IMG/VR virus record: IMGVR_UViG_3300037264_002979
Location: 1 to 25,503 of that record
DNA from: a virus
Length of the DNA: 25,503 nt
Reading direction: 5' to 3' (one strand)
This document shows, piece after piece, positions 1,064 through 24,380 of the stretch; position 1 is the stretch's first letter; each line of letters opens with the position of its first letter. Made by a program: the position numbers and the translations under genes. The notes beneath the pieces are model-generated. The model was not told where the DNA came from and made no database searches. It was given only the letters and a program-made list of their open reading frames with translations.

Positions 1064-1289
1064 GGACCATGACCCGTTGACCCTGGAAGCGGTGCTTTTC
1101 CACCTCGATGACGCCATCGAAGCCATGGTGGGCGCGATGGACGGCTCGGACGCCCCGCCAAGGGCCCCCGGACGGCCCTACAAGGCGCGCAACTGGCATG
1201 AACCCGTCCTGACGGGGGATCCGGTCACGGACGCCTGGGAACGTGCCGTGGCGGCCGGGGACGCCCCCGACCTCGACGCGCCGGGGTAA
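978..1289 (+). CDS. Tail assembly chaperone, T-type extension (frameshift product)
   Basis: This second ORF is probably translated only as a C-terminal extension of the upstream chaperone. Its frame is open from base 906. The sequence already looks coding before the first usable start codon: GERTPEEVAEALTRDPKVMM begins at 957. The GTG at 978 has a GGAGGA only one base away, too close for initiation, and the ATG pair at 1011/1014 lacks a properly spaced site. A +1 shift at 953-956 would give a fused protein of about 261 residues (151 from the first frame, 110 from this one). In phages the T domain binds the tape measure protein. The extension is charged and helical early, with a proline-rich end. 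Independent initiation is the alternative. Confidence 0.6.
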   Translation: MAEALTRDPKVMMERAWLRRMGHPARAPEDHDPLTLEAVLFHLDDAIEAMVGAMDGSDAPPRAPGRPYKARNWHEPVLTGDPVTDAWERAVAAGDAPDLDAPG

Positions 1290-1300
1290 AGGGGATCACC

Positions 1301-3286: not shown

Positions 3287-3290
3287 CCCG

Positions 3291-5744: not shown

Positions 5745-5747
5745 CGG

Positions 5748-7073: not shown

Positions 7074-7095
7074 CCACCGCTACACAGGAGTCCTC

Positions 7096-7968
7096 ATGTC
7101 CACCTACGCCTGCACCGTCAAGAAACCCCTCTCCGGTCAAGACCTGTCGAGCAAGGAGCACCTGTCGGCCGACCCCGAGAAGCTCGCGACCATCGGCCGC
7201 GCGCTCGGGCAACAGGTTCGCGTGAAGCGCTCCTCGACGCAGTACGCTCTCTACACCGTCCACCTGACGCCGCAGGAGTCGCCGGACAGCACGGTGCGAA
7301 TGGGCACCGACGGCCGCGCGAAGATCGGCGGCTCCTTCAACTTCTCGGCGACGGTGGACTCGCAGGTTCCGCACCTGACCTACACGGACGCGGAGGCCGA
7401 GACGAACAGCGAGTTTGTCGAGCGGCTGACCGACAACGGGACGCACACCGGGCTCGTCGCCATCGCCCCGCACGGTGGCGCCATCGAGGCGTGGACCGAC
7501 GAGCAGGCCGAGCGAGTGGAGTCGCAGCTTGTCACGAAGGGCGTCTCATCGTGGCGCTGCAAGGGTTGGAAGAGTGGCGGCGGCGCCTTCGACCGTTGGC
7601 ACATCACGAGCACCGAGATCAATGAGGACAGCTTTCCGCTGCTCGACTCGATCATCGCTCGCGGGTTCACCTACGCCGTCTCGTTCCACGGATTCAGCGA
7701 CACCAACATCTTGATCGGCGGTGCCGCGCCGCTCGCATTGAAGCAGTCGATCCAAGCGGCGATCCAGGCTGCCATCGCCGGGAGTGGCATCAGCGTCGAT
7801 ATCGCCACGGGCGGCGGGTATTCCGGCGACTCGCCGGCCAACATCGTGAACCGCCTGACCTCCGGCGGCGCGAACGGCATCCAGATCGAGCAGAGCCTCG
7901 CTGCGCGCACGAGCTACTGGCAAGCCATCGCCGACGCGGTGGCGAGTGTCTACGCCCCACTGATCTGA
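7096..7968 (+). CDS. Poly-gamma-glutamate hydrolase-family protein
   Basis: I chose the ATG at 7096 because AGGAG (7086-7090) precedes it; the frame is open farther upstream but overlaps the fibre gene. The 290-residue product resembles the poly-gamma-glutamate hydrolase family (phage PghP type), zinc enzymes that cut gamma-glutamyl polymers. Motifs visible: APHGG-x-IE (His126, Glu131), WRCKGWKSGGGAFDRWHITS at residues 153-172, SFHGF (His198) and GIQIEQS (Glu265). These His and Glu residues are the likely metal ligands and catalytic groups. There is no signal peptide or membrane segment. Its position between fibre and baseplate genes suggests a virion-borne or late-expressed depolymerase that clears a gamma-polyglutamate capsule. 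The substrate is inferred from family; a cell-wall gamma-glutamyl bond is an alternative. Confidence 0.85.
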   Translation: MSTYACTVKKPLSGQDLSSKEHLSADPEKLATIGRALGQQVRVKRSSTQYALYTVHLTPQESPDSTVRMGTDGRAKIGGSFNFSATVDSQVPHLTYTDAEAETNSEFVERLTDNGTHTGLVAIAPHGGAIEAWTDEQAERVESQLVTKGVSSWRCKGWKSGGGAFDRWHITSTEINEDSFPLLDSIIARGFTYAVSFHGFSDTNILIGGAAPLALKQSIQAAIQAAIAGSGISVDIATGGGYSGDSPANIVNRLTSGGANGIQIEQSLAARTSYWQAIADAVASVYAPLI

Positions 7969-7994
7969 TTCACGCGCACCCTCGCCCACGGCGT

Positions 7995-8000
7995 TAGAAT
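7995..8000 (+). promoter_or_regulatory. Candidate -10 element (TAGAAT) for a leaderless transcript
   Basis: TAGAAT ends seven bases before the ATG at 8007, and no Shine-Dalgarno sequence precedes that ATG. The spacing places a transcription start on or next to the start codon, as in leaderless mRNAs. TTCACG at 7969-7974 is a poor -35 at 20 bases distance. The call rests on the -10 and the missing ribosome site only. Confidence 0.35.
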
Positions 8001-8006
8001 CCGCGC

Positions 8007-9797
8007 ATGGGCTTTTCCGAGACCGTAGCGGAGATCGCACGTCGCAACGTGACGGGGGACACCTGGTTCGTGCAGGAGCACCCTTACGTGCTCGTGCTCA
8101 CTTGCCTCAAGCCGGGCGGGATCCCCAATGCCGTGTCTGTGTTCGTGCTTCCGCGAGGCCCGCAGGCGTACACCACCACGCGCGTGTTCCGGCAATCCGT
8201 CACGCCCACCGTGGGCGGGTTGGTCGCGGAGGAACGTGGAGCGCTGTGGCGCGAGATCACCGTTGTCGGTTCGTTCGGGTTGGAACCCAAGACCACCGAG
8301 GACACGAGCGCCGCGCCGGAGCCGCCAAACACGAGCGGGCTCGCGTTGTCCGGCCCCATGTGGACGCGGCGCATGCTGCGCAACTTCTTCGACAAGTACG
8401 CGGAACTGAAAGCTGACCCTGAGTTCGCGAGCGTCACTACGTTGGAGTGGCACGACATCAAGCTGGACGAGCACTTCGTTGTCGTGCCGCTGTCGGTGGA
8501 CATCGCGCGCACGTCCGAGAAGCGGATGCAGTACCCGTACACGCTCAAGCTCCGGGCGGTGGCGGAAGCCGGGCGGATCATTCTGCCCGAGCCGGCGAGC
8601 GGGCTGCTCGCCGCCATCAAGGATGTGATCGCCAATGTGAGCGCGGCACTCACGCTCATCGCGTCGGCGATTCAGGAGGGCTCCGAGATCCTGGGCGAGG
8701 TGCGCTACTTCGTCGCCACCATCGACGGCATCCTCACCGATCTCGACACCATCGTGAACTCGGCACAGGACTTCGTGGACGGGGTGACGGACACAATCTC
8801 TGTCGGGCGCGTGTTCATCACGAGCACGGCGACGCTGCTTGAAGATGCGCTCGCGCTCATGGAGTCGGCGGAGGGCTTGCCCGTGGAGGTGCGGCAGAAC
8901 TACCAGGACGCGCTCGATGGGTTGCACACCGTCGCCGCGCAGGCCGCCGCCTTCGGGACCACCTACGCGCAGGAGATCGCTGCCGTCGCGGCGGCGGAGG
9001 CCGGCGCCGGGGGCGACGATGCCGAGGTACTGGGCGCATCCGCCGAAAGCGGCCCATCCACGTCCACGGGCGACTTCGCCGCGCGCACCATCCGAAGCAC
9101 GGACCAGGCCCGCGTGGGCGCCGGAGCGGTGCCCATGGGCCGCCCATTCGGGGTCTACGCGGGCTTCCGTGACTACACGCTCACCGCCGTGGATACGTTG
9201 CCGTCCATCGCCGCGCGCCTGCTCGGCGACGGCGCGCTGTGGTACGACCTCGCCATATTCAATCGCTTGAAGCCGCCCTACACCTCGCCGAGCGGCATCC
9301 CCGGCACGGTGAGGCCGGGTGATGTCATCATCGTGCCCATCGTCGGCGGCGCCAACGCGGGCGCGGTGGTGTCGGGGAGCAACGCCCCTGACGAGGACTT
9401 GCTCGGGACGGACGTCATGCTTGACGAGTTCGAGGACTCGTCACCTGGGCGCCCGGTGGTGGACATCGCCATCGACCGCCGCACGCTCAGGGACGTGCGA
9501 TCCATCGTGGGCGTGCCAAACCTCGTGCAGGCGTTGCAGATGCGCTTGTGGACGGAGCGCGGGCACATGCCACTCGTGCCTGGTTATGGGCTCTCGCGTG
9601 TCGTCGGATTTGGGAGCACGGCGGCGAACGCGAGCGCGCTGCAAGTATCGGTGCGCGGAACGGTGCTCGATGATTCGCGCGTGCAGTCCGTGTCGCGCTT
9701 GACGATCAAGGCCGAGGGCGACACCATCGAGATAGAGGCCGACGTGCTCCCCATCGGCGCGACCACGGCGCAATCCGTGAACGCGGCGCTCGCGTAA
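8007..9797 (+). CDS. Baseplate protein: LysM-like domain fused to gp25-like wedge domain
   Basis: This 596-residue protein seems to combine three functions usually found on separate genes. Residues 1-200 are beta-rich (TTRVFRQSVTPTVGGLV; TLEWHDIKLDEHFVVVPLSV) and resemble the N-terminal part of tail proteins near the hub. Residues 200-335 are Ala-rich helix. Residues about 389-447 look like LysM: DYTLTAVDTLPSIAARLLGD, then a Trp-Tyr, then LKPPY and RPGDVIIVP. Residues about 480-590 look like the gpW/gp25 wedge domain: RSIVGVPNLVQALQMRLWTE, GYGLSRVVGFG and SRLTIKAEGDTIEIEADV. In contractile tails gp25 joins the sheath to the baseplate, and LysM proteins of this type (XkdP or gp53-like) clamp the hub. 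No catalytic residues for lysis are evident. It is followed directly by the J-like gene, as gp25 usually is. Confidence 0.75.
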   Translation: MGFSETVAEIARRNVTGDTWFVQEHPYVLVLTCLKPGGIPNAVSVFVLPRGPQAYTTTRVFRQSVTPTVGGLVAEERGALWREITVVGSFGLEPKTTEDTSAAPEPPNTSGLALSGPMWTRRMLRNFFDKYAELKADPEFASVTTLEWHDIKLDEHFVVVPLSVDIARTSEKRMQYPYTLKLRAVAEAGRIILPEPASGLLAAIKDVIANVSAALTLIASAIQEGSEILGEVRYFVATIDGILTDLDTIVNSAQDFVDGVTDTISVGRVFITSTATLLEDALALMESAEGLPVEVRQNYQDALDGLHTVAAQAAAFGTTYAQEIAAVAAAEAGAGGDDAEVLGASAESGPSTSTGDFAARTIRSTDQARVGAGAVPMGRPFGVYAGFRDYTLTAVDTLPSIAARLLGDGALWYDLAIFNRLKPPYTSPSGIPGTVRPGDVIIVPIVGGANAGAVVSGSNAPDEDLLGTDVMLDEFEDSSPGRPVVDIAIDRRTLRDVRSIVGVPNLVQALQMRLWTERGHMPLVPGYGLSRVVGFGSTAANASALQVSVRGTVLDDSRVQSVSRLTIKAEGDTIEIEADVLPIGATTAQSVNAALA

Positions 9798-9802
9798 GGA
9801 GG
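9796..9802 (+). promoter_or_regulatory. Shine-Dalgarno AAGGAGG that fixes the ATC start at 9808
   Basis: AAGGAGG overlaps the TAA of the previous gene and is followed by five bases (TTCCC) and ATC. The same layout occurs at 15748: AGGAGG, five bases (CTTCC), then ATG. No ATG, GTG or TTG lies at proper distance in the J frame. Confidence 0.65.
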
Positions 9803-9807
9803 TTCCC

Positions 9808-11181
9808 ATCAGGTTCGAGCCCAAAACATTCGCGACCTTCTTGACGCGCATGGCGCAGCGTGTCGTCGCTCGCACGGAGTTGACCGATCTCGAAGAGGGT
9901 GGCGTGCTCCACACCTTCATCTCGTCGGTGGCGCGCGAGTTGGATGACGTGTCGTTTCAGACCGTCAACTTGCAGAAGATTTGGGACATCGACACGGCAG
10001 AAGGCGAGGACTTGGATGAACGGATCAAGGACGCGAACCCGGACGAGATCAGTCGGCGAGGCGCGCTCAAAGCGTCGGGGTCCGTCATCTTCTCGCGCAC
10101 GGGGACCAGCGGCACGGTGGCGATCCCGAGCGGCGCCATCGTGAAGGTGCCCGAGGGCGGGCCAGAGTTCGCGACGACGGCGGCGGGCTCCATCCTCGAC
10201 ACCTTCTCGTCGTCCATCGCCGTGCCCATCTCCGCCGTGGAGGCGGGTGAGGCCGGCAATGTGGACGCCGGCACCATCACGCAGTTGTCCGCCGTCACAG
10301 GCGTGGAGACGGTGACGAACCCCGCCGCGACGACGGGGGGCCAAGACAAGGAAACGGATGCGCAGTTGCGAGCGCGGCTGAAAGCCTATTTCCGCTCGCT
10401 CCCTCGCGGCACCGTGCAGGCGTTGGAGTTCGCCGCGCTGTCCACCGAGTTGGATCCGTTCGGGCGTGTGATCACCGCGCAAGTTGTCGAGTTGACGGGC
10501 GTCGATCTCGGCAAGGTGGAAGTCTACATTGACGACGGCGCGGGGACCGTCGAGCGCACCGACAACTCTGGAGGCTCTCCCGAGACAGTGGTGGCGTTCG
10601 CGGCGGGCGGCGAGGTGCGCCTGTTCCTCGACAATGTGCCGGTGGTGCCGGGGCAGCCGTTCAGCATCCTGCTCAACGCGGGGCTGCTCATCGAAGGCGT
10701 GGACTTCACACTGAACAAGCCGACCGGGCAGATCACTCTGGACCCCACCGTGTTTCCGAGTGGGCTCACACCGGGCGACAACGTGATCGCGAGCTACTAC
10801 TGGTTCGAGGGCCTCATCGCCGAGTGCCAGAAGATCATCGACGGCGACTTGGGCGACCCGACCAACTACCCGGGGTATCGCGCCGCCGGGACCATCGTGG
10901 CTGTCCTTCCGCCCGTCGTGTACCAGCAGATCGTGGAGGCCGCCATCGTGATCGAGGATGGCTTCGACGGCGACGACGTGCGCACCAAGGTGCAAGCCGC
11001 CATCAACCGCTACATCAACGGACTCGGCATCAACGGCGACGTGATCGCGTCCGAGCTTGTGCATCTCGCGCAGTCCATCCCGGGCGTGTTCGATGTCGCC
11101 TTCACCACGCCCACCGCCAACGTCGTCATCGGCGATGGCGAGTTGGCGCGCGTCGCTAATGCCAACATCGACTTGACCTAG
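9808..11181 (+). CDS. Baseplate J-like wedge protein (Mu gp47 / P2 gpJ type)
   Basis: This protein forms part of the baseplate wedge, on the periphery of the central hub. From the ATC at 9808 it has 457 residues. The first TTG (9841) or ATG (9850) in the frame would cut off RFEPKTFATFL, and J-like proteins usually open with just such a M-x-F-x-P-K-T-F-x-x-x-L stretch followed by an Arg-Val-Val-Ala-Arg segment. Other family features seen: RTELTDLEEGGVLHTFISSV near residue 23-42; ISRRGALKASGSVIFSRTGT; the strand VAIPSGAIVKVPEGGPEFAT; the EAGEAGNVDAGTI turn; and KETDAQLRARLKAYFRSLPR near 184. A beta-rich insertion follows at about 225-330 and the C-terminal domain ends in a helix and strand pair. 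It starts 10 bases after the gp25-like gene, the normal order. Confidence 0.85.
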   Translation: MRFEPKTFATFLTRMAQRVVARTELTDLEEGGVLHTFISSVARELDDVSFQTVNLQKIWDIDTAEGEDLDERIKDANPDEISRRGALKASGSVIFSRTGTSGTVAIPSGAIVKVPEGGPEFATTAAGSILDTFSSSIAVPISAVEAGEAGNVDAGTITQLSAVTGVETVTNPAATTGGQDKETDAQLRARLKAYFRSLPRGTVQALEFAALSTELDPFGRVITAQVVELTGVDLGKVEVYIDDGAGTVERTDNSGGSPETVVAFAAGGEVRLFLDNVPVVPGQPFSILLNAGLLIEGVDFTLNKPTGQITLDPTVFPSGLTPGDNVIASYYWFEGLIAECQKIIDGDLGDPTNYPGYRAAGTIVAVLPPVVYQQIVEAAIVIEDGFDGDDVRTKVQAAINRYINGLGINGDVIASELVHLAQSIPGVFDVAFTTPTANVVIGDGELARVANANIDLT

Positions 11182-11190
11182 GAGTTCCTC

Positions 11191-11553
11191 GTGAACGCAC
11201 ACGACACCGCACATCGCAGCGTCAAGACGCAGAACAACGTCGGGCTCGCCAACATTGCCGTGGACTTCTCCGCGTCCACGCCCACGCCGCCCACCAAGAA
11301 GGGCTACTACCGCGAGATCCGCATCACCAAGCTCGCCGGGCCCGGGACGACGGCTTCCTTCAACGTGTACGAGGGCACGGCTGGGGTGCGGCTGCTCAAG
11401 GCGCAAGGACTCGTCGCGTTCCCCGTGTCCGTGGTCAATGACCACATCTACTACGAGACGCCCGGCTTGCAGAACTTCACCGTGGAGGTCGCCACCAACG
11501 ACGGCGCCGCCACGACCAACGTGCAGATCGAAGTCACGACGGGAGGGCTGTAG
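11191..11553 (+). CDS. Small beta-rich tail/baseplate protein, unknown role
   Basis: This 120-residue protein begins with GTG, eight bases after AGGAG at 11181-11185. I do not recognise the family. It is predicted mostly beta: IAVDFSASTP, KGYYREIRITKLAG, TASFNVYEGTAGVRLLKAQG and FTVEVATNDGAATTNVQIEV. There are no cysteines, signal peptide or membrane segment. The content of Thr, Val, Asn and Ala fits a virion surface or minor tail protein with an immunoglobulin-like or jelly-roll fold. It lies between the J-like gene and a gene with a fibre-like C-terminus, so it probably belongs to the baseplate or fibre network. The fold is inferred only. Confidence 0.5.
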   Translation: MNAHDTAHRSVKTQNNVGLANIAVDFSASTPTPPTKKGYYREIRITKLAGPGTTASFNVYEGTAGVRLLKAQGLVAFPVSVVNDHIYYETPGLQNFTVEVATNDGAATTNVQIEVTTGGL

Positions 11554-11556
11554 TCC

Positions 11557-12504
11557 ATGCGCCACGAGACACCACAGTTCGATCAAATCTTCGCCCACCT
11601 CGAAGTCGTCATCGCAGGCGTGGGGCAGGCGGGACTCGCGCCCGTGTGCTCCATCCAACGGGTCAACGATGGGTTCTGGCTGGCGGCCGGCGGGCTCTCG
11701 TTCGCCGCTCCTTTCGCCACCAACCCACTCGTGGAACCGGACGCGGTGAACCTGCCCGGGAAGTACGAGTTCAAGATTCCCACGGCGACCATCGATCCGG
11801 TGCTCGGCATCCCGGGCTACCGCATCAAGATCACCGAGGCGGTGAACAGCATCCTCGAATATGTGCATGCCGTCCCGTTGCGACGCGCGGCATGGGCAGA
11901 GCCGCGCACCACGTTCCCCGTCGCCGGCACGTTCGGCGAGACGACCGGACAGGAGATCCTTCGCTCAGGTACAGCGGCGGCGGGTGCCGCCGGATCGATC
12001 ACGCTCGACGCGGGCGCTCCGGCGCTCGTGGACTTCTTCAAGCATGCGCTTGTCGTCATCATCGCGGGCACGGGCCTCAACCAGTCACGCCGCATCACGG
12101 CGTACAGCGCGCTTCGCGTTGCGAGCGTGGATCCCAACTGGGTGATTGCCCCCGACGCAACGAGCGCGTTCAAGATCGTCGCGCAAGGCGAGGCTGCGGT
12201 GGACGAGGCTTCGCTCGTGGACGCCATCTGGGACGAAGGCATCGCCGGGCACGCGACGGACGGCACCTTCGGCGACCACATGCGCCGCATGCTCTCGTTG
12301 CGGCAGAGCAACATGCGCGTGGTGTGGGACACCTACGCGAGCAACGGCCAGCCTTCCCACGGCTTCGCCTACATCTACAACTCGAAGGCCGACCTCGACG
12401 CCGACGTGACTCCATTCCCGCTCGCCACCGGCAAGTACGAAATCACCGCTGCTTACGATGGTAGCGGGCGTGTCACCTCGTACAAAAGTGGAAAGCTGTC
12501 CTAG
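11557..12504 (+). CDS. Predicted tail/baseplate protein, unknown
   Basis: The protein has 315 residues. Residues 1-105 are beta-rich (EPDAVNLPGKYEFKIPTATI; GIPGYRIKIT), looking like a structural jelly-roll. Residues 125-205 form a second segment with an Ala/Gly-rich loop (GTAAAGAAGSITLDAG) and paired strands (HALVVIIAGTGLNQSRRITA), similar to a domain seen in several virion proteins. Residues 220-315 contain VDAIWDEGIAGHATDGTFGD and a terminal sheet (HGFAYIYNSKADLDADVT; KYEITAAYDGSGRVTSY). The W-D-x(2-5)-H-x(2)-D/A-G-T-F-G-D/E pattern is common in phage structural proteins of unknown role. No membrane segment is seen. It is spaced three bases from the previous gene and abuts the next one, so the products are probably made together. 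Confidence 0.5.
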   Translation: MRHETPQFDQIFAHLEVVIAGVGQAGLAPVCSIQRVNDGFWLAAGGLSFAAPFATNPLVEPDAVNLPGKYEFKIPTATIDPVLGIPGYRIKITEAVNSILEYVHAVPLRRAAWAEPRTTFPVAGTFGETTGQEILRSGTAAAGAAGSITLDAGAPALVDFFKHALVVIIAGTGLNQSRRITAYSALRVASVDPNWVIAPDATSAFKIVAQGEAAVDEASLVDAIWDEGIAGHATDGTFGDHMRRMLSLRQSNMRVVWDTYASNGQPSHGFAYIYNSKADLDADVTPFPLATGKYEITAAYDGSGRVTSYKSGKLS

Positions 12505-12981
12505 ATGGTGTCGTCGCTCGCCACCACAGGCATCCTTGGCGGCGTCACGGGCACGTCCACCTCGGGCATCACCACGACGAGCAGCGCGGGGCTCGCGCTC
12601 GGGTCCATCGATCCGGAGTCGCTGGGCGACGACGGCGGATGGGAGGTGACGGCGACGGGATTGTTCCCGCTGGACCAGGGCGTGACCTTCCGCGTGCAGG
12701 ATGGTGGGTCGCTCGATGTGCCATGCTACTCGGGCGTCATCGGGAGCGAGAACGTGTCGCAGTCGGAGGATGGCGTCACGGCGAGGTTCACCATTCCGCC
12801 CTTGCCCATCGGCGGACCTTATGACATTTACTGCGAGTCCGAGGACGCGACGCTTACCGCCACGCTCGCCGCCGCGTTGACGATCATCCACCGGAGCGCG
12901 AGCACGCCGCTGTACGGGATGCGCCGCAACGCACCACCGCCGCGCCGCGTCGGGCCCTACGACATCTTGGACGAGGAATAG
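12505..12981 (+). CDS. Small structural protein with IPT/TIG-like Ig fold (tentative)
   Basis: This 158-residue ORF starts with an ATG abutting the TAG of the previous gene; no strong ribosome site is visible, so coupled translation is likely. Residues 1-35 are Ser/Thr/Gly-rich and probably flexible. Residues about 38-130 look like an immunoglobulin-like module of the IPT/TIG sort: GGWEVTATGLFPLDQGVTFR, VTARFTIPPLPIGGPYDIYC and LTIIHR show the alternating strand pattern and the proline-glycine turn before the last strands. Three cysteines are present but without a metal-binding pattern. The C-terminus is basic and then acidic. Such modules often decorate tails or capsids and aid weak surface binding. 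The family assignment is tentative. Confidence 0.45.
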   Translation: MVSSLATTGILGGVTGTSTSGITTTSSAGLALGSIDPESLGDDGGWEVTATGLFPLDQGVTFRVQDGGSLDVPCYSGVIGSENVSQSEDGVTARFTIPPLPIGGPYDIYCESEDATLTATLAAALTIIHRSASTPLYGMRRNAPPPRRVGPYDILDEE

Positions 12982-14358
12982 GTGGACGCGCCTCGCCCGA
13001 TGTGGGAAGGCATCTTCTCCGCGCTGGCTGACACCATCTACGAGATGGCCGGCACGCTCATGGTGCGCACAACGGCGGCGTACACGTCCGGTAGCGGCTC
13101 TCTGGCCGTCGAAGGCACGCACAGGTGGCCGGAGTCCGGGCGCATCGCCGTCGCGGGCGTGACGGGCTTCTACGCCACCAAGACGGACACCTCTTTCGAC
13201 GGCATCACCGACGAGGACGGCAACCCTGGGCTCCCGCGCGACGTGCGCGTGCGTTCGGTGGTGTCGGATATCTCGCAGTCGTCCACGCAACTCGACGGGC
13301 TGCGCCTGTCCTTCCTCGTTGCTTACGCGCAAGGGACGGAACTCGCCACGCTGGGGCGCAACTACGGGATCTCGCGTCCTCGGAGCGTTGACGACGACAC
13401 CTACCGCGAGTTGCTCAAGGTGCTGATCTACCTGGACGCGCAGACGATCCACGCCTGCACAAAAGTGCTCGACGCGCTCCTCGGCTCTGGCAACTATGAG
13501 CTTTACGAGGATCTCGTATCCGACCCGTTCACCGTGCATGTGATCATCACGCCGACCGCCAGCACAAGCTCGGTGGCAAAGACCTTCCTTGTCGGGCGCG
13601 AGCCGCACGCGAGCGCCGGCTTCACTGTCACCACGACGCATCCTCCCGAGCGGGTTCACGGCATCTGGGACTCGGCCGATCCGTTCCGCCTCGGGACGAA
13701 CTTCGTATATGCCACGATCTCGGGCTTCACCGACGCGGGCGATCCGACGTGGTTCCAATCCGGTGTTGCCGCGTTCCTTCCCACGGACGAGAACCAACCG
13801 GCGATCATCGGGATTGAGATTTGGAAGGTCGTCGCCTACATCGATCCGATGACGATTCAACTCGGCCAGCCGACGCGCGCAGACGCCACGCTCAACTCCG
13901 GATCGCCTGACGTGCTCGTCACCGACACCGACTGGTTCCGCTCGTGGATGGTTGGACACGAGATCGCCGTGGTCGCGGTCAACGCGGGCAACTCGGGCAT
14001 CTTCGCCATCCTCGAAGTGCTGACGCCGAGGTCCGTGCGCTTGTCCGGTGCGACCTTCACCACCGAAACGGACGTGACGTGGCAACTGCGCCCCGTGTTC
14101 GGCACCGCGAGCCCGGTGCTCGTGGACATCATGCGCGTGACCATCGCGGGCAACGTCGTCACCGCGCCTGTCGCGTTGCCCGTCAACGTGCTCGTGGACT
14201 ACACCACCGTGGATTCCGCGCAACTAATGGAAAGCCCGAGCACGGCAGGCGTCGGCGCGGGTGCGTCACCGTTCTTCCTGTTTGACGAGGGCGCCACTGT
14301 CGAGCAAACCTTGGATCTCATCACCGCAGCCGGCGTGCGGGTTGTCGTGGAGTCATAG
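12982..14358 (+). CDS. Baseplate/tail wedge protein with gpI- or gp48-like core (tentative)
   Basis: The 458-residue protein starts with a GTG abutting TAG; GAGGA just upstream serves as ribosome site. Residues 95-170 carry a recognisable tail-wedge pattern: LSFLVAYAQGTELATLGRNY, then GISRPRSVDDDTYRELLKVL, where a leucine-rich helix and a Gly-x-x-R-x-x-x-x-x-D-x-x-Y-R-x-x-L pattern recur in P2 gpI, Mu gp48 and related proteins. A sheet follows (YELYEDLVSDPFTVHVIITP). Residues 210-390 are beta-rich and repetitive (PAIIGIEIWKVVAYIDPMTI; HEIAVVAVNAGNSGIFAILE) and could be a shaft or surface domain. Its place after J and before a fibre-like gene matches gpI/gp48. It is longer than those proteins because of the extra beta domain. 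Confidence 0.5.
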   Translation: MDAPRPMWEGIFSALADTIYEMAGTLMVRTTAAYTSGSGSLAVEGTHRWPESGRIAVAGVTGFYATKTDTSFDGITDEDGNPGLPRDVRVRSVVSDISQSSTQLDGLRLSFLVAYAQGTELATLGRNYGISRPRSVDDDTYRELLKVLIYLDAQTIHACTKVLDALLGSGNYELYEDLVSDPFTVHVIITPTASTSSVAKTFLVGREPHASAGFTVTTTHPPERVHGIWDSADPFRLGTNFVYATISGFTDAGDPTWFQSGVAAFLPTDENQPAIIGIEIWKVVAYIDPMTIQLGQPTRADATLNSGSPDVLVTDTDWFRSWMVGHEIAVVAVNAGNSGIFAILEVLTPRSVRLSGATFTTETDVTWQLRPVFGTASPVLVDIMRVTIAGNVVTAPVALPVNVLVDYTTVDSAQLMESPSTAGVGAGASPFFLFDEGATVEQTLDLITAAGVRVVVES

Positions 14359-16499: not shown

Positions 16500-16865
16500 A
16501 TGGAGCCCCCGAAAGATAGCACGACAAGCACCGCCGGCAAGGACGAACGGATTGAAGTCGTTGACGAGTGGACCGGATTCCACGCGATCATCTTCCAAGA
16601 CGCGATGGAGTGCCCGGAGGTCCGAACGCTGCACCCCGCTGCGTTCCGGTTGTGGGTGTACCTCAAGACATGGACGACGCGCGGAGTCGCGAGCCCATCG
16701 CAGCTTGTGATGTCCAAACGACTCAAGATTCCTTTGCGCACAGTGAAGCGCGCTGTGGCCGAGTTGGAACGAGCATTGTTGCTACGGCGCGAACGTCACT
16801 CGACTCGCGGGCGCTCTGTGGTCTACCGGATGCTGCGCCCGCCATCCTTCGGCAAACGATCTTGA
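16500..16865 (+). CDS. Winged helix-turn-helix protein (replication or regulatory)
   Basis: The 121-residue protein has AGGAG at 16491-16495 before its ATG. Residues 1-40 are polar and acidic. Residues about 42-115 form a winged-helix domain: TLHPAAFRLWVYLKTWTTRG, then VASPSQLVMSKRLKIPLRT (a helix-turn-helix in which SQLVMSKRL and LRTVKRAVAELE are the two helices), then LLRRERHSTRGRSVVYRML as the wing. The pattern matches the HTH_36-type domain found in phage and plasmid replication-initiation proteins. The basic surface fits DNA binding. It lies before a set of replication genes and next to a region of hairpins which may be its target site. A transcription regulator is an alternative. Confidence 0.65.
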   Translation: MEPPKDSTTSTAGKDERIEVVDEWTGFHAIIFQDAMECPEVRTLHPAAFRLWVYLKTWTTRGVASPSQLVMSKRLKIPLRTVKRAVAELERALLLRRERHSTRGRSVVYRMLRPPSFGKRS

Positions 16866-17044: not shown

Positions 17045-18595
17045 ATGGTCGAAGTCATCATCAACAATGCCACCTCCCGGCTCATCGCCCCGAGGCCCAT
17101 CCTCCGCGACGTGCGGCACCTCGTGTCCTTCCGCGCCGCTGACCTTCCTCCGGTAGCGGCGCAGTCCGCCATCAAGGGATGGATGCGGGAGCACGGGACG
17201 TGGGGCGGCGCCGCATCCACCATCGCGAGCATGGTGGCGAACGATGATCTCGTGACCGCGTGTGCCGAGGCCGACTTCGACCTTGGCGCGTTCACTCCCG
17301 CGATGCTCGAAGCCATCAAGCGCATCCGGGGGCTGTGGGACGGGTGGAAGCCGCTCGTGGACTCCACGGGGACGTTCCCCACCGGGCTCTTGGGGCACGT
17401 CCGCCGGGCGCTGATCCTCCGGCTGGGTGTGGAGGTGGCGGAAACGGACGCCAGAGCCGTCTACAGGCCCCGAGGGCCGCTTACCCCCCTCCCGGGCCTA
17501 TTCGACTACCAGATCGCGGCCCAAGCCGCCTTTTTGGCCCGGGAAAGGGGCGTCGTGGACCTTCCGCCGAGGTCTGGGAAAACCCGAATCGCCGTTTCCA
17601 TCGTTGTCGCTTTGGGCGAGCCGGCGCTGTTCGTCGCCCCCACGGTGGGCATTGTGGGGCAAACGGAGGCGGCCTTTCGCGAGAACCTCCCGGCGCGTGA
17701 CGTGGTGGCGGTGACGGGCGGGGAGCCGGATGCGCGCACGCGGCGGGTGATGAACGGTGCCCTCGTGTGGATCGTCACGGCCCCTACCGCCGCGAAGCTC
17801 ACGGGCATCGAAAGCCGGCGCGTGCTCGTGCTTGACGAGTTCCATCATGCAAGCTGCGACACCTTCCAAACGATCTCTGAGCGCGCGGTCAACGCCTATT
17901 GGCGCCTCGGGCTCACGGGGACGCACTACCGCGCCGATGGGCGGGACATGGAGATGCGCGGCGTGCTCGCGGAGACGGTCTACCGGCGCACGGTGGGCGA
18001 GATGGTGGCGATGGGCCGGCTCGTGCCGGCGCGTATCGCCATGGTGCGCGTGCCGGGGAGCGAGATCGATGCGCGCGGGCGGGAGGTCTACACGGAGGGC
18101 GTGGTGGATCACGTCTTTCGCAACTTGGTGCTTGTGCGCGCGGCGCAGGAGTTGCGCGACAAGGGGCGGCGCGTGCTCGTGCTGGCGAAGGAGATCCGTC
18201 ACGCGGGCGCGCTGGCTGAAGCCATCGGCGGCGCGGTGGCGGTGGACGGTGGCGACAACGAGCGCGCCGATTGGGCGTTGAAGGAACTCGCCGAGGGACG
18301 CCTGCGCGTCGTCGTGGGCACGAGCGTCATCGGGGAGGGGCGCGACGTGCCGGCGGCCGACGCGCTCGTATACGCGGCGGGCGGAAGCTCGCGCGTGAAG
18401 GTCAAGCAGGATGTCTACCGTGTGCTCACCGTGAGCCGGGGCAAGACGCGCGGCATCATCGTGGACATGGCGGACAACCACCATCCCCGGCTGTGCGAGG
18501 CGGCGGCGGAACGGCTCGCGCTCTACCGCGAGGAGTCGTCATTCACGACGGACATCATCGAGCCGAGCGGGCTCACTGCTTGGTTGGCCGAATGA
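17045..18595 (+). CDS. SF2 DNA/RNA helicase (UvsW/XPB-like)
   Basis: This 516-residue protein uses ATP to unwind or remodel DNA; UvsW-type phage helicases act at stalled forks and in recombination-dependent replication. Helicase motifs seen: Q-like region before LFDYQIAAQAAFLARERGVV, Walker A PPRSGKT (residues 174-180), VAPTVGIVGQT (Ia), Walker B DEFHH (264-268), GLTGTHYR (III, near 290), and VVVGTSVIGEGRDVPAADAL (V, near 425-442). Motif VI reads QDVYRVLT (455-462), lacking the G and final R of QxxGRxxR. The N-terminal 150 residues are an extra helical domain, possibly substrate-binding. The ATG at 17045 has no Shine-Dalgarno site; the frame is open upstream to 16970 with only a CTG at 16991. 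Downstream genes are coupled by overlapping codons. Confidence 0.85.
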   Translation: MVEVIINNATSRLIAPRPILRDVRHLVSFRAADLPPVAAQSAIKGWMREHGTWGGAASTIASMVANDDLVTACAEADFDLGAFTPAMLEAIKRIRGLWDGWKPLVDSTGTFPTGLLGHVRRALILRLGVEVAETDARAVYRPRGPLTPLPGLFDYQIAAQAAFLARERGVVDLPPRSGKTRIAVSIVVALGEPALFVAPTVGIVGQTEAAFRENLPARDVVAVTGGEPDARTRRVMNGALVWIVTAPTAAKLTGIESRRVLVLDEFHHASCDTFQTISERAVNAYWRLGLTGTHYRADGRDMEMRGVLAETVYRRTVGEMVAMGRLVPARIAMVRVPGSEIDARGREVYTEGVVDHVFRNLVLVRAAQELRDKGRRVLVLAKEIRHAGALAEAIGGAVAVDGGDNERADWALKELAEGRLRVVVGTSVIGEGRDVPAADALVYAAGGSSRVKVKQDVYRVLTVSRGKTRGIIVDMADNHHPRLCEAAAERLALYREESSFTTDIIEPSGLTAWLAE

Positions 18596-18648
18596 CGGCG
18601 AGGATGGGATTTCTCGCCTGTGCGACCGTGTATGGGACGACGGAGTGA
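18592..18648 (+). CDS. 18-codon bridging ORF (coupling peptide, tentative)
   Basis: ATG at 18592 overlaps the helicase stop (ATGA). The ORF ends in TGA at 18646-18648, which overlaps the GTG of the next gene (GTGA). The peptide is MTARMGFLACATVYGTTE. It may keep ribosomes moving between the two genes. It could also be chance, since no independent ribosome site is seen. Confidence 0.25.
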   Translation: MTARMGFLACATVYGTTE

Positions 18649-19205
18649 CGATCTTGGGACCGGATGCTTGGAAGCGCGCCATCGGCGTGCAGGCGTGGAA
18701 TCACATCATGCGCGCGTCGGCGGGGAGATCCCCCGAGGATCTGGTTGCCGACGTGCTTACCAAGGCGAGCGAGGCCGGCTTCCGCGCCCCGGAAGTCGCG
18801 CCCCGCGTGACGCCGGAGGGCACGCGGGTGCTGTGGCCCCGTGAGGACGGCGCCGGAACGCCCGTGCTCACCGCCGCCGGATTGGAGGCGCACTACGCGG
18901 TGCGCGGTCACGGGTTCATCCTGCTTCGCATGCCGCAACTCGTGAGGGGCGCGGCAGGTTCCCTGCTCCCGCGATTGCAGGAGGTGCTCGCGGCCTACGA
19001 GGAACAATGCACGACAGAGAAGGTGTCGGCGCTGCCCGGGTGGGCGGACCTCACCGTGTTTGTCGGTGGGAGAGAGGGCGGGGTCATCGGCACCGCGCAT
19101 GGCTTCATCGCGCATGCGCGCGAGTTGCTAGAGGGGCTCGTGAAGGAATCGCCCGAGCCCGGCAAGGTGCATCGGGTTCACGTCCCTGGGTCCGCACGCG
19201 CATGA
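18645..19205 (+). CDS. Hypothetical protein in the replication operon
   Basis: The 186-residue product starts with a GTG inside GTGA that overlaps the stop of an 18-codon ORF, and a weak GGAG overlaps the start. I recognise no family. The N-terminal 50 residues are helical (GPDAWKRAIGVQAWNHIMRA; DLVADVLTKASEAGF). The central part is mixed, with a hydrophobic strand pair (LEAHYAVRGHGFILLRM), then a long amphipathic helix (LLPRLQEVLAAYEEQCTTEK). The C-terminal part has VSALPGWADLTVFVGG and a helix pair. There is one cysteine and no membrane segment. It lies between the helicase and an Fe-S-motif protein, all linked by overlaps, so a replication accessory role is likely. Nothing in the sequence decides the role. 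Confidence 0.55.
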   Translation: MTILGPDAWKRAIGVQAWNHIMRASAGRSPEDLVADVLTKASEAGFRAPEVAPRVTPEGTRVLWPREDGAGTPVLTAAGLEAHYAVRGHGFILLRMPQLVRGAAGSLLPRLQEVLAAYEEQCTTEKVSALPGWADLTVFVGGREGGVIGTAHGFIAHARELLEGLVKESPEPGKVHRVHVPGSARA

Positions 19206-19729
19206 CACCGGATGCCGCCCTCGTCATCTACAACCAGATCACCGCCGGGGCGGCACCGCGCACGAGAACCGGCGCCCCGATTCCGTGGCCCCTGACGCCG
19301 AAGGTGCGCGGCGACGTGGTGAGGTTCCTCGCGTGGTGCGTAGAGCATCAGGTGGACCCCGAGCGATGGATGCGCGCCCGCATGGATTCGGTGGGGCATC
19401 GTTTCCGCGTGGCGCCGGATAAGTTGATCTCGCCCAAGTTCCTCGTCGCGTTCAAGCGGTGGGGCGACGGGCACCAAGCCGAGCGGCAAGGGCAGGCCGC
19501 GATGGTCGCCGACACGGTGGACGACACACCCCGCTCCGGTGGCGAACTCGTGGAGTTGGCGGAAGCGGTGAAGATGCGCCTTCGGGCGGAGCCCGAGGTG
19601 TGTATGCTCTCGTGGAGCGTCACCTTGGGGTGCAACCCAAGGAGCCAGTGGTGTGCGCGTTGTCCGATGATCGGTGCATGCTGGGCGATGTTGGACGACG
19701 CGACCCGGGCCGCGCGCTCGGCGGGGTAG
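19202..19729 (+). CDS. Small protein with EndoIII/MutY-type 4Fe-4S cysteine motif
   Basis: The ATG at 19202 overlaps the upstream TGA (ATGA), so I use it and not the much earlier open-frame start. The protein has 175 residues. Residues 144-160 read CNPRSQWCARCPMIGAC: a C-x6-C-x2-C-x5-C pattern, the same spacing as the iron-sulfur loop of EndoIII and MutY. The rest has no helix-hairpin-helix GPD motif or catalytic Lys/Asp pattern of those glycosylases. Residues 1-110 are helical and basic (RFLAWCVEHQVDPERWMRAR; KFLVAFKRWGDGHQAERQ). It precedes the DnaB-like helicase by four bases, the place where phages often keep helicase loaders or accessory factors. A zinc site is an alternative for the four cysteines. 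Confidence 0.6.
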   Translation: MTPDAALVIYNQITAGAAPRTRTGAPIPWPLTPKVRGDVVRFLAWCVEHQVDPERWMRARMDSVGHRFRVAPDKLISPKFLVAFKRWGDGHQAERQGQAAMVADTVDDTPRSGGELVELAEAVKMRLRAEPEVCMLSWSVTLGCNPRSQWCARCPMIGACWAMLDDATRAARSAG

Positions 19730-19733
19730 CGCC

Positions 19734-21101
19734 GTGATCGGGGCGGATCGATTTGGTGGTGGGTTCCAACGTGTGCTCGCTCGCGCGTGCTTGGATGATC
19801 CGGCACTCAAGGCGCTCGTCAAGCGGTTCATCGACGCTGGGCAACTCGGCTTCACCGACCCGGCGAGCGCGTGGGCGTGGCGCGTCATCGCGAGTACGGA
19901 CACGCCGACGACGTTGCAACTGGAAACGGAGGCCGGGCGCATCCCTGCTGACGATCCGGCGCGTGGGGGCATCGAGTCCATCATCCGGGGCGCGGACGTG
20001 CGCGAGGACGAATACGTGCGCGGGCAAGTCGTGGAGTGGGCGCGGCAGCAGGTGTTCCGGCTCGGGTTTGAGGAGGCGCGCAGCGCGTGGAACACGGGGC
20101 GCACCGACGACGCGATGCACAAGATGATGGCGCGCATCGAGGAGATGGCGGCGATGCGGTTGGACGCTGCCGACCGTGGATGGTTTTTCGAGGACTTCGA
20201 CGCGAGGCAGACGCGGCGCGAGTTCACCGCCGCCGGGCTCGATCACTTTCCCAGCGGCATCGACAAGATCGACAAGGCGATGAACGGCGGGCTGCACTAT
20301 GGCGAGTTGGAGGTGCCGCTCGCGTACTCCGGTATCGGCAAGACGTTCTGGTGCGTGCAGCGCGGATTCGTGTGCTCGCGCATGCGCGAGCGGTGCATCC
20401 ATTTCGTATTGGAGGGCGGGCGCGGCAAGACGGAGGACCGTTACGAGGCACGCTTCACCGATACGCTCTACTCGCAAGTGCGGCGCGGTGACTTTGACGA
20501 ACGCGCGTTGGCGATCCTGCGTCGCGAGTACGACATTCTCAAAGCCAATCTCGTGGTGCGCGGCTTCGCCGACCGTACCGCGTGGCGCATCACGTTCGAG
20601 GACATGCTGGGCGAGTTGTCCGAGTTGCGCCGCGCGCACGGATGGGTGCCGTCGCTGATCGTGGTGGACTACGGGGATCTCGTACATGCGGAAGGCGAAG
20701 GCGTGCGCGAACGGCAGATGACGGCGTTCCGGCAATTGCACGCGCTCGCCGAGCGGCAGGAGTTCCGTGGGCATCGCGGCTACGCTGTATGCGCCCCGAG
20801 CCAGGCGCAGCGCCCCGACGACGGCGCCGACGAACGCGAGCACGTCCTACGCCCGCACAAGATCGCCGACTGCTACGAGAAGGTGCGGGTCGCGGATGCC
20901 ATCGTGAGCATCAACCGCACGCGCAGCGAGCGCGAGCGTGATCGCGTGCGCGTGCATCTCGGCAAGTACCGCGACGCGCAGGACGGGATCACGGTGCGCG
21001 TGGCTACCGGGTACGCCAAGGGCGCGTTCAGCGTGCTCGGGTGCGAGGAAGATGACGTGACCTCGGCCGGCTCCCCCGTCGCGGCGGGCGGTGATGCGTA
21101 A
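19734..21101 (+). CDS. DnaB-like replicative helicase (RecA-fold ATPase)
   Basis: I use GTG at 19734; the frame is open earlier, but that part overlaps the previous gene. The protein has 455 residues. It resembles phage replicative helicases of the DnaB/gp41 type, which unwind the fork 5' to 3' as a hexamer. The N-terminal 150 residues are helical, as for the primase-binding part. The RecA core begins with FPSGIDKIDKAMNGGLHYGE. Walker A is LAYSGIGKT (residues 196-204); the first Gly is Ala197. Later features: the conserved-looking HFVLEGGRGKTEDRY, Walker B VVDYGD (Asp312), the CAPSQAQR segment near 360, and the DAIVSINRTRSERERDR end. A primase gene overlaps its 3' end by 11 bases, which supports a joint primosome. 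Confidence 0.8.
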   Translation: MIGADRFGGGFQRVLARACLDDPALKALVKRFIDAGQLGFTDPASAWAWRVIASTDTPTTLQLETEAGRIPADDPARGGIESIIRGADVREDEYVRGQVVEWARQQVFRLGFEEARSAWNTGRTDDAMHKMMARIEEMAAMRLDAADRGWFFEDFDARQTRREFTAAGLDHFPSGIDKIDKAMNGGLHYGELEVPLAYSGIGKTFWCVQRGFVCSRMRERCIHFVLEGGRGKTEDRYEARFTDTLYSQVRRGDFDERALAILRREYDILKANLVVRGFADRTAWRITFEDMLGELSELRRAHGWVPSLIVVDYGDLVHAEGEGVRERQMTAFRQLHALAERQEFRGHRGYAVCAPSQAQRPDDGADEREHVLRPHKIADCYEKVRVADAIVSINRTRSERERDRVRVHLGKYRDAQDGITVRVATGYAKGAFSVLGCEEDDVTSAGSPVAAGGDA

Positions 21102-22230
21102 GCCTCGCCCGGCGGAGTACGCGCTCACGGCGGCAGAGGTGCGTTTCGATCTCGCCGCGTGGCTCTTGCGCCACGCTGTCGTCGTCCACTCGGCCGGGCA
21201 GGAGTGGATCTGCGCGTGCCCCGCGTGCGGGCGTCCGAAGCTGCAAGTGAACATCTCGCGCAAGGCTAGCCATTGCTGGGTGTGCGCGTTCGCCACATGG
21301 CGGCCCGTCGTGCTCGTGGCCGCGCTCGCCAACGTCACGACGGCGGAGGCGACGGAGATCGTTGCCGCTCATGGCGCCGGGATGGAACTCGGGCCGGTGG
21401 ACGCGCTCGCCATCGGAACGCGCGCCTACAAGCCGGCGTTGCCCGAGGCGCCGTTTCCGTCGGTGTCGTGGACGTTGACCGGCACCGTATTGGAGTACGC
21501 GAGAACGCGCGGCATCTCGGATGATCACGCGCGCATGTTCGGCATCGGCATGGGCGCCGGGTTGACGAGCACGAAGATCGATTGGATGACGCGCGGGCGG
21601 CTCGTGTTCCCTGTGTGGGCGCCGGATGGGCGACTCGTGTACTGGACGGCACGGGCAACGGACGCGAGCACGCCCAAGGTGTTCAACCTCCCGACCGCGT
21701 GCGACAAGGCGGGGCACCCGCCGCTGTGTGCTTGTGAGCACGAGCGATGGGGATTGCGATCCACGCCTGGGTGCGCCGGCAAAGAGGACGTGCTTCTCGG
21801 CATCCACCTTCTACGAGCGGGCGATCCGGTTGTGCTCGTGGAGGGGCCGATGGACGCCGCCGTGTGCGGGCCGGGCTTCGTGTCCGTGGGCGGCGCGGCG
21901 CTGTCCATGCGGCAAGCGGTGTTGCTCGCCGGCACGGGTGCGTCGGAAGCCATCGTGCTGTTCGACGGGGACGATGCCGGGCGCGCGGGGACGTGGGGAC
22001 GCGGGCGCGGCGATGGCGGCGCGGTGGCGATGCTGGCAGCCTTCATGCCGACTCGCGCGGCGCGGTGCCCCGAAGGCACGGACCCGGCGCAGCTAGGTCG
22101 GGAACGGGCGATGGAACTCGCATTGTCTGCGCCGCCTATGGGCGACGGCGGGGACTTGGTGGATCGCTCCGGCCGAGTGGAGAGAATCAAGGGCGAACCG
22201 CCCTATATCGGGCCGCTCAAAGAAACTTGA
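21091..22230 (+). CDS. DNA primase, DnaG/TOPRIM type
   Basis: The start is GTG at 21091 or ATG at 21094; both overlap the helicase gene. The protein has 379 residues. The N-terminus has a zinc site CACPACG (Cys41-46) and HCWVC (61-65), as in DnaG/gp4-type primases. The catalytic TOPRIM fold follows: a first lobe near 120-200 (TRGRLVFPVWAPDGRLVYWT), then VLVEGPMDAAVCG (Glu251, Asp255) and LFDGDDAGRAG (Asp292-Asp295), with the metal-binding acidic residues present. Between the lobes is a Cys/His-rich insertion (Cys204 to Cys228). No helicase domain follows, so it must work with the DnaB-like protein encoded next to it. It makes RNA primers for lagging-strand synthesis. Confidence 0.85.
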   Translation: MMRKPRPAEYALTAAEVRFDLAAWLLRHAVVVHSAGQEWICACPACGRPKLQVNISRKASHCWVCAFATWRPVVLVAALANVTTAEATEIVAAHGAGMELGPVDALAIGTRAYKPALPEAPFPSVSWTLTGTVLEYARTRGISDDHARMFGIGMGAGLTSTKIDWMTRGRLVFPVWAPDGRLVYWTARATDASTPKVFNLPTACDKAGHPPLCACEHERWGLRSTPGCAGKEDVLLGIHLLRAGDPVVLVEGPMDAAVCGPGFVSVGGAALSMRQAVLLAGTGASEAIVLFDGDDAGRAGTWGRGRGDGGAVAMLAAFMPTRAARCPEGTDPAQLGRERAMELALSAPPMGDGGDLVDRSGRVERIKGEPPYIGPLKET

Positions 22231-22260: not shown

Positions 22261-22344
22261 GTGTGCGAGGAGCATTCCGCGAGGTGCGGATACGTCTCGC
22301 GTGCCGGCAACGGTATCAACCAACAACGACAAGGACATCACCCA

Positions 22345-23247
22345 ATGGCAACCCCACTCATCCTCATCGCCTTCGCCGTGGAGAACGGCGATCCCACCAT
22401 GATCAAGCTGACGGTCAAGGGGCCGTCGTCCAAGATCCCCAAGGACATCAAGAGCGAGGCAGGGCCGAAGGGCACGCGGGTCATCACGCTCGCCGACACG
22501 CGGCACGACGCCCTCTACTCCGTGGGCGCGGTGCTCGGCGTCAACGACGTGAAGGTTGGTGACGACGACGGCGAGTACCTCGCGTGGTTCAAGAACTTCG
22601 TGCCGGCCGCCAACGGCGGCACCATGGCCGAGGGTGCCGACAAGGAAGCCGAGCCCGAGGCGTCGCCTCCGCCCGCGTCCGAGTCCACGGGCGATGCGCC
22701 CTCCGCCAAGCCCGCGAAGGGCGGCAAGGGCAAGAAGGCCAAGGCCACCGAGCCCGCCCCCGCCCCCGTCAAGAGCCGCAAGGACGAGTTGACTGAGATG
22801 CCGTTCGCGGATCTCAAGAAGCTCGCCGGCAAGCTCGGCGTCAAGTTCGTGGCGGTCAAGCGCGCGATGATCGAGAAGGGCATCATCAAGGCCGAGGCGA
22901 AGGTCGATGACGGCGGCGCGAAGCCGGAGGGCAAGAAGGCGAAGGCCACCGCGCCCAAGGGCAAGAGCAAGGCGACCACCTACGACAAGAGCAAGCGCGA
23001 CGATTTCGGGCCCGAGTTCGCGCCGGGCAAGGAGGTCCGCGTGTCCTACAACCACCGGGAGTTCGGTGTCTGCGAGTACGGCGTCACGCGCACCAAGGAC
23101 GGCGAGTTCAAGCTGTCCCACTTCAAGGGCGCGCGGCCCGGCATCAAGAAGGGCATGTCGTGGGCGCACGCTTGGGACATGCTCGAAGCGCTCGTGGGGC
23201 GGCCCAAGCACAATGTCCCCATGCGGCGCTGGTTCCGCCTGCCCTAG
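22345..23247 (+). CDS. Basic Lys/Ala/Pro-rich protein with helix-extension-helix motif
   Basis: I use the ATG at 22345 because AAGGA at 22331-22335 precedes it; the earlier GTG at 22261 lies on the possible promoter. The protein has 300 residues. Residues 1-95 form a small mixed domain (LILIAFAVENGDPTMIKLTV; DVKVGDDDGEYLAWFKNFV). Residues 95-145 and 190-222 are Lys/Ala/Pro/Gly-rich linkers, histone-H1-like. Between them DELTEMPFADLKKLAGKLGV followed by KFVAVKRAMIEKGII looks like a SAP or Rho-N type motif, often a DNA or RNA binder. The C-terminus, from residue 223, has VRVSYNHREFGVCEYGVTRT and ends with WFRLP. It is probably a nucleic-acid-binding protein. It stands alone between a possible promoter and a terminator. 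Confidence 0.55.
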   Translation: MATPLILIAFAVENGDPTMIKLTVKGPSSKIPKDIKSEAGPKGTRVITLADTRHDALYSVGAVLGVNDVKVGDDDGEYLAWFKNFVPAANGGTMAEGADKEAEPEASPPPASESTGDAPSAKPAKGGKGKKAKATEPAPAPVKSRKDELTEMPFADLKKLAGKLGVKFVAVKRAMIEKGIIKAEAKVDDGGAKPEGKKAKATAPKGKSKATTYDKSKRDDFGPEFAPGKEVRVSYNHREFGVCEYGVTRTKDGEFKLSHFKGARPGIKKGMSWAHAWDMLEALVGRPKHNVPMRRWFRLP

Positions 23248-23305: not shown

Positions 23306-23348
23306 GCAAGGGGCACCCCGCTCCCCAAGTGCAAGGAGGCACACCACC

Positions 23349-24380
23349 ATGACCGAAGCCCCGTCCATCATCAAGCGACCCCCGCCGCCCCCGCCGCCGA
23401 TCTCGTCCGTCGTGCGCGGAGACACGAGCCACGTACAGCGCGTGACGCTCAATCTGATCCGGCTGTCCGCCGCGTGCCCGCCAGAGTTGCGGCGCGTGCT
23501 CGACACGCTGGCCGACGACGATCACGAGTGGATGGTGGATCGGCTCCCTCGTAGCGACATCGAGCGCGTCTACGCCTACGTGGACGGCGCGCTCGCCAAC
23601 CGCGCGATGGCGGAGTTCACCGCCGATACCAACTCGCTGATCGATCACCGCTCGTGTGATGCCGAGTGCCGCCTGTGCGGGCAGAAGCACATCCGCTTCG
23701 AGTTCCTCCTGCGCAATGGGCAGGGCGGGCGCGACGTGTGGACGGGCTCGACGTGCATCGAAGAGTACGGGCTGAGCGTCGATGGCGAGACGACGGCCGA
23801 GGAAGCCCTCAAGTTGTTGCGCGCCGCCATCGGTCGCGCCAAGCGCAAGGCCGAGCGCGAGGATTGGCAGGCCGCGCACCCGGATCACGTCGCCGACTTC
23901 GCCGACATCTCCCGCGCCGTGTCCGTCGTGCGCACCACGCCATCGTACTCGTTCAAGACGGCGCTGCCGGGGAACTGGTGGCGGACGTGCAAGGACTTCC
24001 TGCGCGTCGGGAAAGCGCCGCTCAAGTTCTACTCGCGCGAGGAGTTTCTTACCGAGTTGCGCACGCGACAGGTGTACGGCTCTGGCGACAAGCCCGGCGT
24101 GCTCGTGATCGCGCGGTCGCTGTGCGCTGCGTGGGACGCCGCCAACGCGGGCGCCAAGGTGGCCGGCAAGACGTGGCGCGCGTACATCGACGCCAACAAG
24201 GATGTGCTCAACTCGTCCGATCTCGACTACTTGCAGCGGTGGGAAGTCGAAGGCAAGGGAGAGGACACGCTTGCCAACTGGGAGCGTGATCGTTGGGCGA
24301 ATATCCGCATGCGCGTCGAGGCGGCTCGTGCGCCCAAGCCACCGCCGGCCAAGGACGACACGGGCGATCTCCCGCTGTAG
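23349..24380 (+). CDS. Zinc-binding phage protein with CxxC...VGSxC-like domain
   Basis: I use the ATG at 23349, with AAGGAGG at 23333-23339; the frame is open farther upstream but overlaps the terminator. The protein has 343 residues. After a proline run (about residues 9-17) there is a helical region and then C103-x3-C107-x2-C110-G-Q-K-H-I-R-F-E-F, continuing to TGSTCIEEYG with Cys136. This matches a zinc module seen in many phage and bacterial proteins of unknown role, where C-x-x-C-G-x-x-H-I-x-Y-x-F is followed after about 20 residues by V/T-G-S-x-C-I. Two helical domains follow (TAEEALKLLRAAIGRAKRKA; SLCAAWDAANAGAKVAGKTW), ending in a proline-rich tail. DNA or RNA binding is a reasonable inference. 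The true role is unknown. Confidence 0.6.
   Translation: MTEAPSIIKRPPPPPPPISSVVRGDTSHVQRVTLNLIRLSAACPPELRRVLDTLADDDHEWMVDRLPRSDIERVYAYVDGALANRAMAEFTADTNSLIDHRSCDAECRLCGQKHIRFEFLLRNGQGGRDVWTGSTCIEEYGLSVDGETTAEEALKLLRAAIGRAKRKAEREDWQAAHPDHVADFADISRAVSVVRTTPSYSFKTALPGNWWRTCKDFLRVGKAPLKFYSREEFLTELRTRQVYGSGDKPGVLVIARSLCAAWDAANAGAKVAGKTWRAYIDANKDVLNSSDLDYLQRWEVEGKGEDTLANWERDRWANIRMRVEAARAPKPPPAKDDTGDLPL

Follow-up and report, generated by a model that had tools for sequence, protein, structure and literature searches.

In the Herelleviridae, a Rep-type replication gene lies between the genes for a ResIII helicase and a DnaB-like helicase; we found this arrangement in SPO1, Goe26, LysYB1, P100, phiSA012, A9, Mater, and EF1TV. 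The product, whose mechanism is little known, is called gp20.1 in SPO1 (phrog_14232) and 'Rep' or HTH DNA binding protein in phiSA012, P100 (gp43), A9 (gp114), and Mater (phrog_1098). In the helicase loader DnaI, the helicase-interacting domain is a zinc-binding fold (PMC3791466). Cysteine modules comparable to the one described below are known from other systems: in WhiB1, C9, C37, C40, and C46, located on helices 1-3, hold a 4Fe-4S cluster (PMC5741622, PMC6282962), and the iron staple of Cas4 and AddB has a similar cysteine arrangement, although a DUF3799 nuclease with these AddB/Cas4-type cysteines was crystallized with zinc (PMC3466216).

The window analyzed here, a complete IMG/VR record of 25,503 bases, contains on its plus strand a 175-amino-acid open reading frame, P0001 (19202..19729), which combines a helical N-terminal domain with a C-terminal module of four cysteines (Cys4 module). 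An ATGA (19202-19205) combines the start of P0001 with the stop of the ORF before it, and the GTG start of the DnaB-like helicase gene, at 19734, lies 4 nt past the P0001 stop. The C-terminal part reads ...VCMLSWSVTLGCNPRSQWCARCPMIGACWAML..., and a first-pass annotation had identified the motif CNPRSQWCARCPMIGAC in it as an iron-sulfur loop of the EndoIII/MutY type, C-x6-C-x2-C-x5-C, on a protein lacking the HhH-GPD domain. Taken literally, both observations are correct: the motif is present at the claimed position (C144-x6-C151-x2-C154-x5-C160), and searches of Pfam, PHROGs, and NCBIfam with P0001 and its relatives returned no family match, HhH-GPD and EndoIII included. Sequence searches of the PDB (queries P0001, A5, and A7) gave chance matches only, and tblastn with P0001 or its relatives found no significant match among INPHARED phages. 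A TnsA-like NCBIfam match of one family member (E = 0.0019) was far under the cut-off and was taken as chance. P0001 is a genuine gene of a previously undescribed family, which ends in a conserved four-cysteine site and is encoded directly before the replicative helicase gene. That no described family has this layout is true of Pfam, PHROGs, and NCBIfam, but not of the N-terminal domain, which has described relatives, or of the cysteine spacing class, which is shared with WhiB and Cas4/AddB.

Relatives were reached through the neighboring helicases. The first came from the IMG/VR record L002, which shares the gene order of the window and encodes, immediately before the helicase, a product with 32% identity to P0001. 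Further contigs were collected with degenerate DNA patterns that target a conserved stretch in each of the two helicases, ResIII and DnaB-like, and the remaining ones by a scan with the helicase alignment; in GTDB genomes, scanning with this type of alignment yielded no relative. By tblastn, P0001 relatives were identified in every locus of the group that extends to the gene. They amount to 12 distinct sequences in addition to P0001 itself; when all 13 are aligned, these show 26-39% identity to P0001. In L005, a related ResIII helicase is present and no P0001 relative was found.

The same operon recurs in the IMG/VR relatives, in the order HTH protein, ResIII helicase, small protein, P0001, DnaB-like helicase, primase. 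In the window, where all these genes are on the plus strand, the HTH protein (16500..16865) matches phrog_270, replication initiation (E = 2.5e-4), has an ortholog in L002 (E = 4.8e-9), and is followed by a ResIII/DEAD superfamily 2 helicase (17045..18595; Pfam ResIII, 1.5e-12; phrog_16, 1.6e-52). The conserved small protein of 186 amino acids (18645..19205), whose gene is the one in start-stop overlap with P0001, is 48% identical in L002 and present in most related loci; its function is unassigned, with no family match in Pfam or PHROGs and no similarity to Rep. Downstream of P0001 lie the DnaB-like replicative helicase (19734..21101; phrog_19, 1.3e-24), which is 57-66% identical across the relatives, and a DNA primase (21091..22230; phrog_47, 5.5e-31). 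The coupling to helicase genes asserted in the first-pass annotation is borne out, as P0001 is the gene immediately before the DnaB-like helicase in 13/13 members and usually overlaps its start or ends within a few nucleotides of it. In one locus (L021:2288-2762), the P0001 relative stops right after the last cysteine and a 472-nt stretch precedes the helicase gene, whereas most others overlap. The upstream half of the window (503-14358) carries tail assembly chaperone and baseplate genes; their placement before the replication genes is as in SPO1-like myoviruses.

The N-terminal helical domain of P0001 (residues 1-95; 19202..19486, plus strand) proved to be a distant relative of the domain that follows the HTH in Rep, and of SPO1 gp20.1. 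With hhalign, residues 2-95 aligned with the region of Rep after the HTH, with P = 1.4e-4 for the combined Rep profile and 3.5e-5 when the N-terminal domain was used alone. When nine Herelleviridae gene families were compared, the P0001 profile matched only two, both representing the syntenic inter-helicase gene (P = 0.001-0.004, against 0.14-0.76 for the other families). In a column-shuffle control, 99 of 100 shuffles scored no better than P = 0.18; the remaining shuffle gave a strong six-column match at the end of the profile, which we take as an hhalign edge artefact. We also searched 16 complete phage genomes and two further viral records blind with the 13-sequence profile, the genomes having been picked mostly for carrying Rep and the positions not preselected. 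Three of the four matches were Rep genes, namely gp20.1 of SPO1 (78605-78931, E = 0.0027) and the HTH Rep genes of Mater (76339-76413, E = 0.006) and CM1 (36055-36135, E = 0.012), and the fourth was SPO1 gp27. A Foldseek search of predicted viral structures (BFVD) picked up A9 gp114 weakly (E = 1.1; the best of all matches had E = 0.03), and such weak matches served as a hint only. The phrog_1098 and phrog_14232 models gave no match at P0001 in the 13 records. Each of these scores is weak alone; together they point to distant homology between the N-terminal domain and the helical domain of Rep.

The N terminus of Rep, in turn, aligned with the HTH protein encoded at 16500-16865 (hhalign P = 1e-6, probability 91%), so the fused Herelleviridae protein seemingly corresponds to two genes in the lineage of the window, the HTH protein being the counterpart of the N-terminal HTH of Rep. 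SPO1 gp20.1 is shorter too, and its match to the fused Rep proteins begins past the HTH part. Like Rep, P0001 is encoded between the ResIII and DnaB-like helicases, with one extra small gene in the window lineage, and shares with it the helical domain (residues ~1-95 of P0001, the post-HTH region of Rep); unlike Rep, it is shorter, lacks a fused HTH, and carries a Cys4 module, for which no counterpart was found in the Rep proteins. Judged from these comparisons, the P0001 family is a novel form of the Herelleviridae-type replication protein in which the HTH has its own gene and a Cys4 site is added.

The alignment also redefined the cysteine site. C134 (19601..19603), C151 (19652..19654), C154 (19661..19663), and C160 (19679..19681, all on the plus strand), the putative metal ligands, are kept in 13/13 sequences as C-xn-C-x2-C-x5-C, with n = 16, 17, or 20, and the CxxC is preceded by T-G-G-W-H-P-x-S or a near variant. 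As they make up four of only seven invariant columns at ~30% identity, conservation of the site goes beyond chance. C134 lies outside the motif of the first-pass annotation, and C144 (19631..19633, plus strand), with which that motif begins, is replaced by W, F, or Y in each of the 12 relatives; in L019, a Y at this position is followed by a C one residue on. The search for relatives that the same annotation had proposed thus corrects the first ligand and also the residue to mutate, which is C134 instead of C144. Because the family layout starts at C134, the EndoIII spacing in P0001 is a coincidence of one sequence. That C144-C160 would form an EndoIII/MutY-type 4Fe-4S loop used for redox-controlled DNA binding has in its favor the exact spacing in the window protein and a C-x2-C-x5-C end common to the family; the non-conserved first ligand, the lack of an HhH-GPD domain or glycosylase fold, and the outcome with Pfam EndIII_4Fe-2S (PF10576), which matched 0/13 records while 14/14 controls were positive, make it highly improbable. 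With C134 as first ligand, the arrangement is therefore as in WhiB or Cas4/AddB.

The WhiB-like (Wbl) proteins share this spacing class, with x27 as the first spacer in WhiB1, and likewise have helices around the cysteines. Pfam Whib made contact with one member (E = 0.044-0.1) and one related record (E = 0.0015), both under cut-off. At residues 111-163, the P0001 profile moreover matched SPO1 gp27 (L059:1762-2229; phrog_13400; E = 0.005), annotated as 'regulation and/or late gene expression'. gp27, whose N terminus reads CFGIGHDPNVKECKMCDVREQC, and its homologs in three phages (L061, L062, and L063), which keep the N-terminal cysteines, combine a conserved C-x11-C-x2-C-x5-C module at the N terminus with a Rho_N-like C terminus; in SPO1, G-x2-P-x4-C stands before the pair. 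P0001 could accordingly be read as a transcription regulator whose WhiB- or gp27-like Cys4 module has RNA polymerase or sigma, not the helicase, as its binding partner. The similarity to gp27, in which the module is N-terminal, is nevertheless at motif level only (hhalign P = 0.0095-0.02), and with WhiB just ten columns aligned, the CxxCxxxxxC itself (P = 0.02). The G(V/I)WGG that follows the WhiB cysteines is absent in all aligned P0001 members, and WhiB membership was rejected, there being no profile match above cut-off and nothing in common beyond the cysteine spacing. The genomic role differs as well: P0001 sits in a purely replicative operon, its N-terminal domain points to Rep, and we consider a transcription regulator unlikely. 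Together with a motif in an ORF of a 485-kb phage (L064), the gp27 module suggests, at the level of the motif only, that a small Cys4 module is common to several phage DNA-transaction proteins.

The Cys4 module (residues 108-175; 19523..19729, plus strand) was modeled by AlphaFold2 as short helices, C134, C151, and C160 lying within them. Confidence was high both for the entire, nearly all-helical P0001 (pLDDT 88.9) and for the module alone (pLDDT 88.4, pTM 0.74). Foldseek and VIA searches of the PDB with P0001 or the Cys4 module gave no significant fold match, although this does not establish that the fold is new. The site is probably metal-binding, and a 4Fe-4S cluster appears slightly more likely than zinc, given that all four putative ligands are cysteines, with a single CxxC, an x5 spacer, and a distant first cysteine in a helical setting. 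A lone CxxC combined with an x5 spacer is a typical feature of 4Fe-4S staples. The arrangement of a distant first cysteine and three clustered C-terminal ones recalls the Cas4/AddB staple, although the first cysteine of P0001 is only 16-20 residues off and no RecB or PD-(D/E)XK nuclease domain was matched by Pfam in P0001 or its relatives. The metal cannot be read from sequence, since an AddB/Cas4-type nuclease contained zinc (the DUF3799 protein; PMC3466216) and the DnaI domain is a zinc fold (PMC3791466). These two precedents also speak for a version in which the same protein, with the same role, holds a structural zinc in its four cysteines as DnaI does, with nothing redox-related about it. 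DnaI resembles P0001 in being a helicase loading factor with a small metal-binding domain, if the function predicted for P0001 is correct; P0001 differs in having no AAA+ domain, and membership in DnaI_N was rejected (Pfam PF07319, 0/13 records). As the module is also modeled as helices and not as paired CPxCG zinc knuckles, and its CxxC-x5 pattern is that of the staples, we regard the zinc version as plausible but somewhat short of probable.

Since P0001 adjoins the DnaB-like helicase in 13/13 members and its N-terminal domain is related to a Rep protein encoded at the same place, we infer that it is a helicase-linked replication factor, in keeping with the helicase-loading role suggested in the first-pass annotation. 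In the reading we favor, with somewhat better than even confidence, P0001 is one part of a split replication initiator or helicase-loading factor, extended by a Cys4 metal module, and is predicted to be accessory to the DnaB-like helicase; direct contact with the helicase is suggested by gene order. P0001 would most likely pair with the HTH protein (16500-16865), which would bind the origin, while P0001 would bridge to the helicase and help to set it on DNA. C134, C151, C154, and C160 would hold one metal center with a mainly structural role, which may stabilize a contact surface at the helicase or at single-strand DNA. In the Herelleviridae, the HTH and helical parts are fused, or the helical part occurs without the HTH, as in SPO1 gp20.1. 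Redox control is conceivable. A stronger version, in which the mobile Cys4 module carries a 4Fe-4S cluster and loading depends on its integrity, strikes us as rather doubtful; if an iron-sulfur cluster is indeed present, P0001 would be an unusual Fe-S protein in phage helicase loading. The analysis ties an orphan gene to the inter-helicase replication protein of SPO1-like phages and reveals a lineage in which its HTH and helical parts are encoded separately, with a conserved four-cysteine site on the helical part that is missing from the Herelleviridae protein.

Some minor observations concern other proteins. In L064 (LR745208.1), a 485-kb uncultured phage, an unannotated ORF starting from ~4067 has CFGGWSSKARPCEGCPVSRQC in its C-terminal part, near 4778. 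Downstream of the primase gene in the window, a Lys/Ala/Pro-rich protein (22261-23247) contains a weak Rho_N-like stretch and loosely resembles the C-terminal half of SPO1 gp27. A protein of unassigned function (23343-24380) contains the cysteine cluster CDAECRLCGQKHIRF...STC and shows only weak similarity to zf-HC2.
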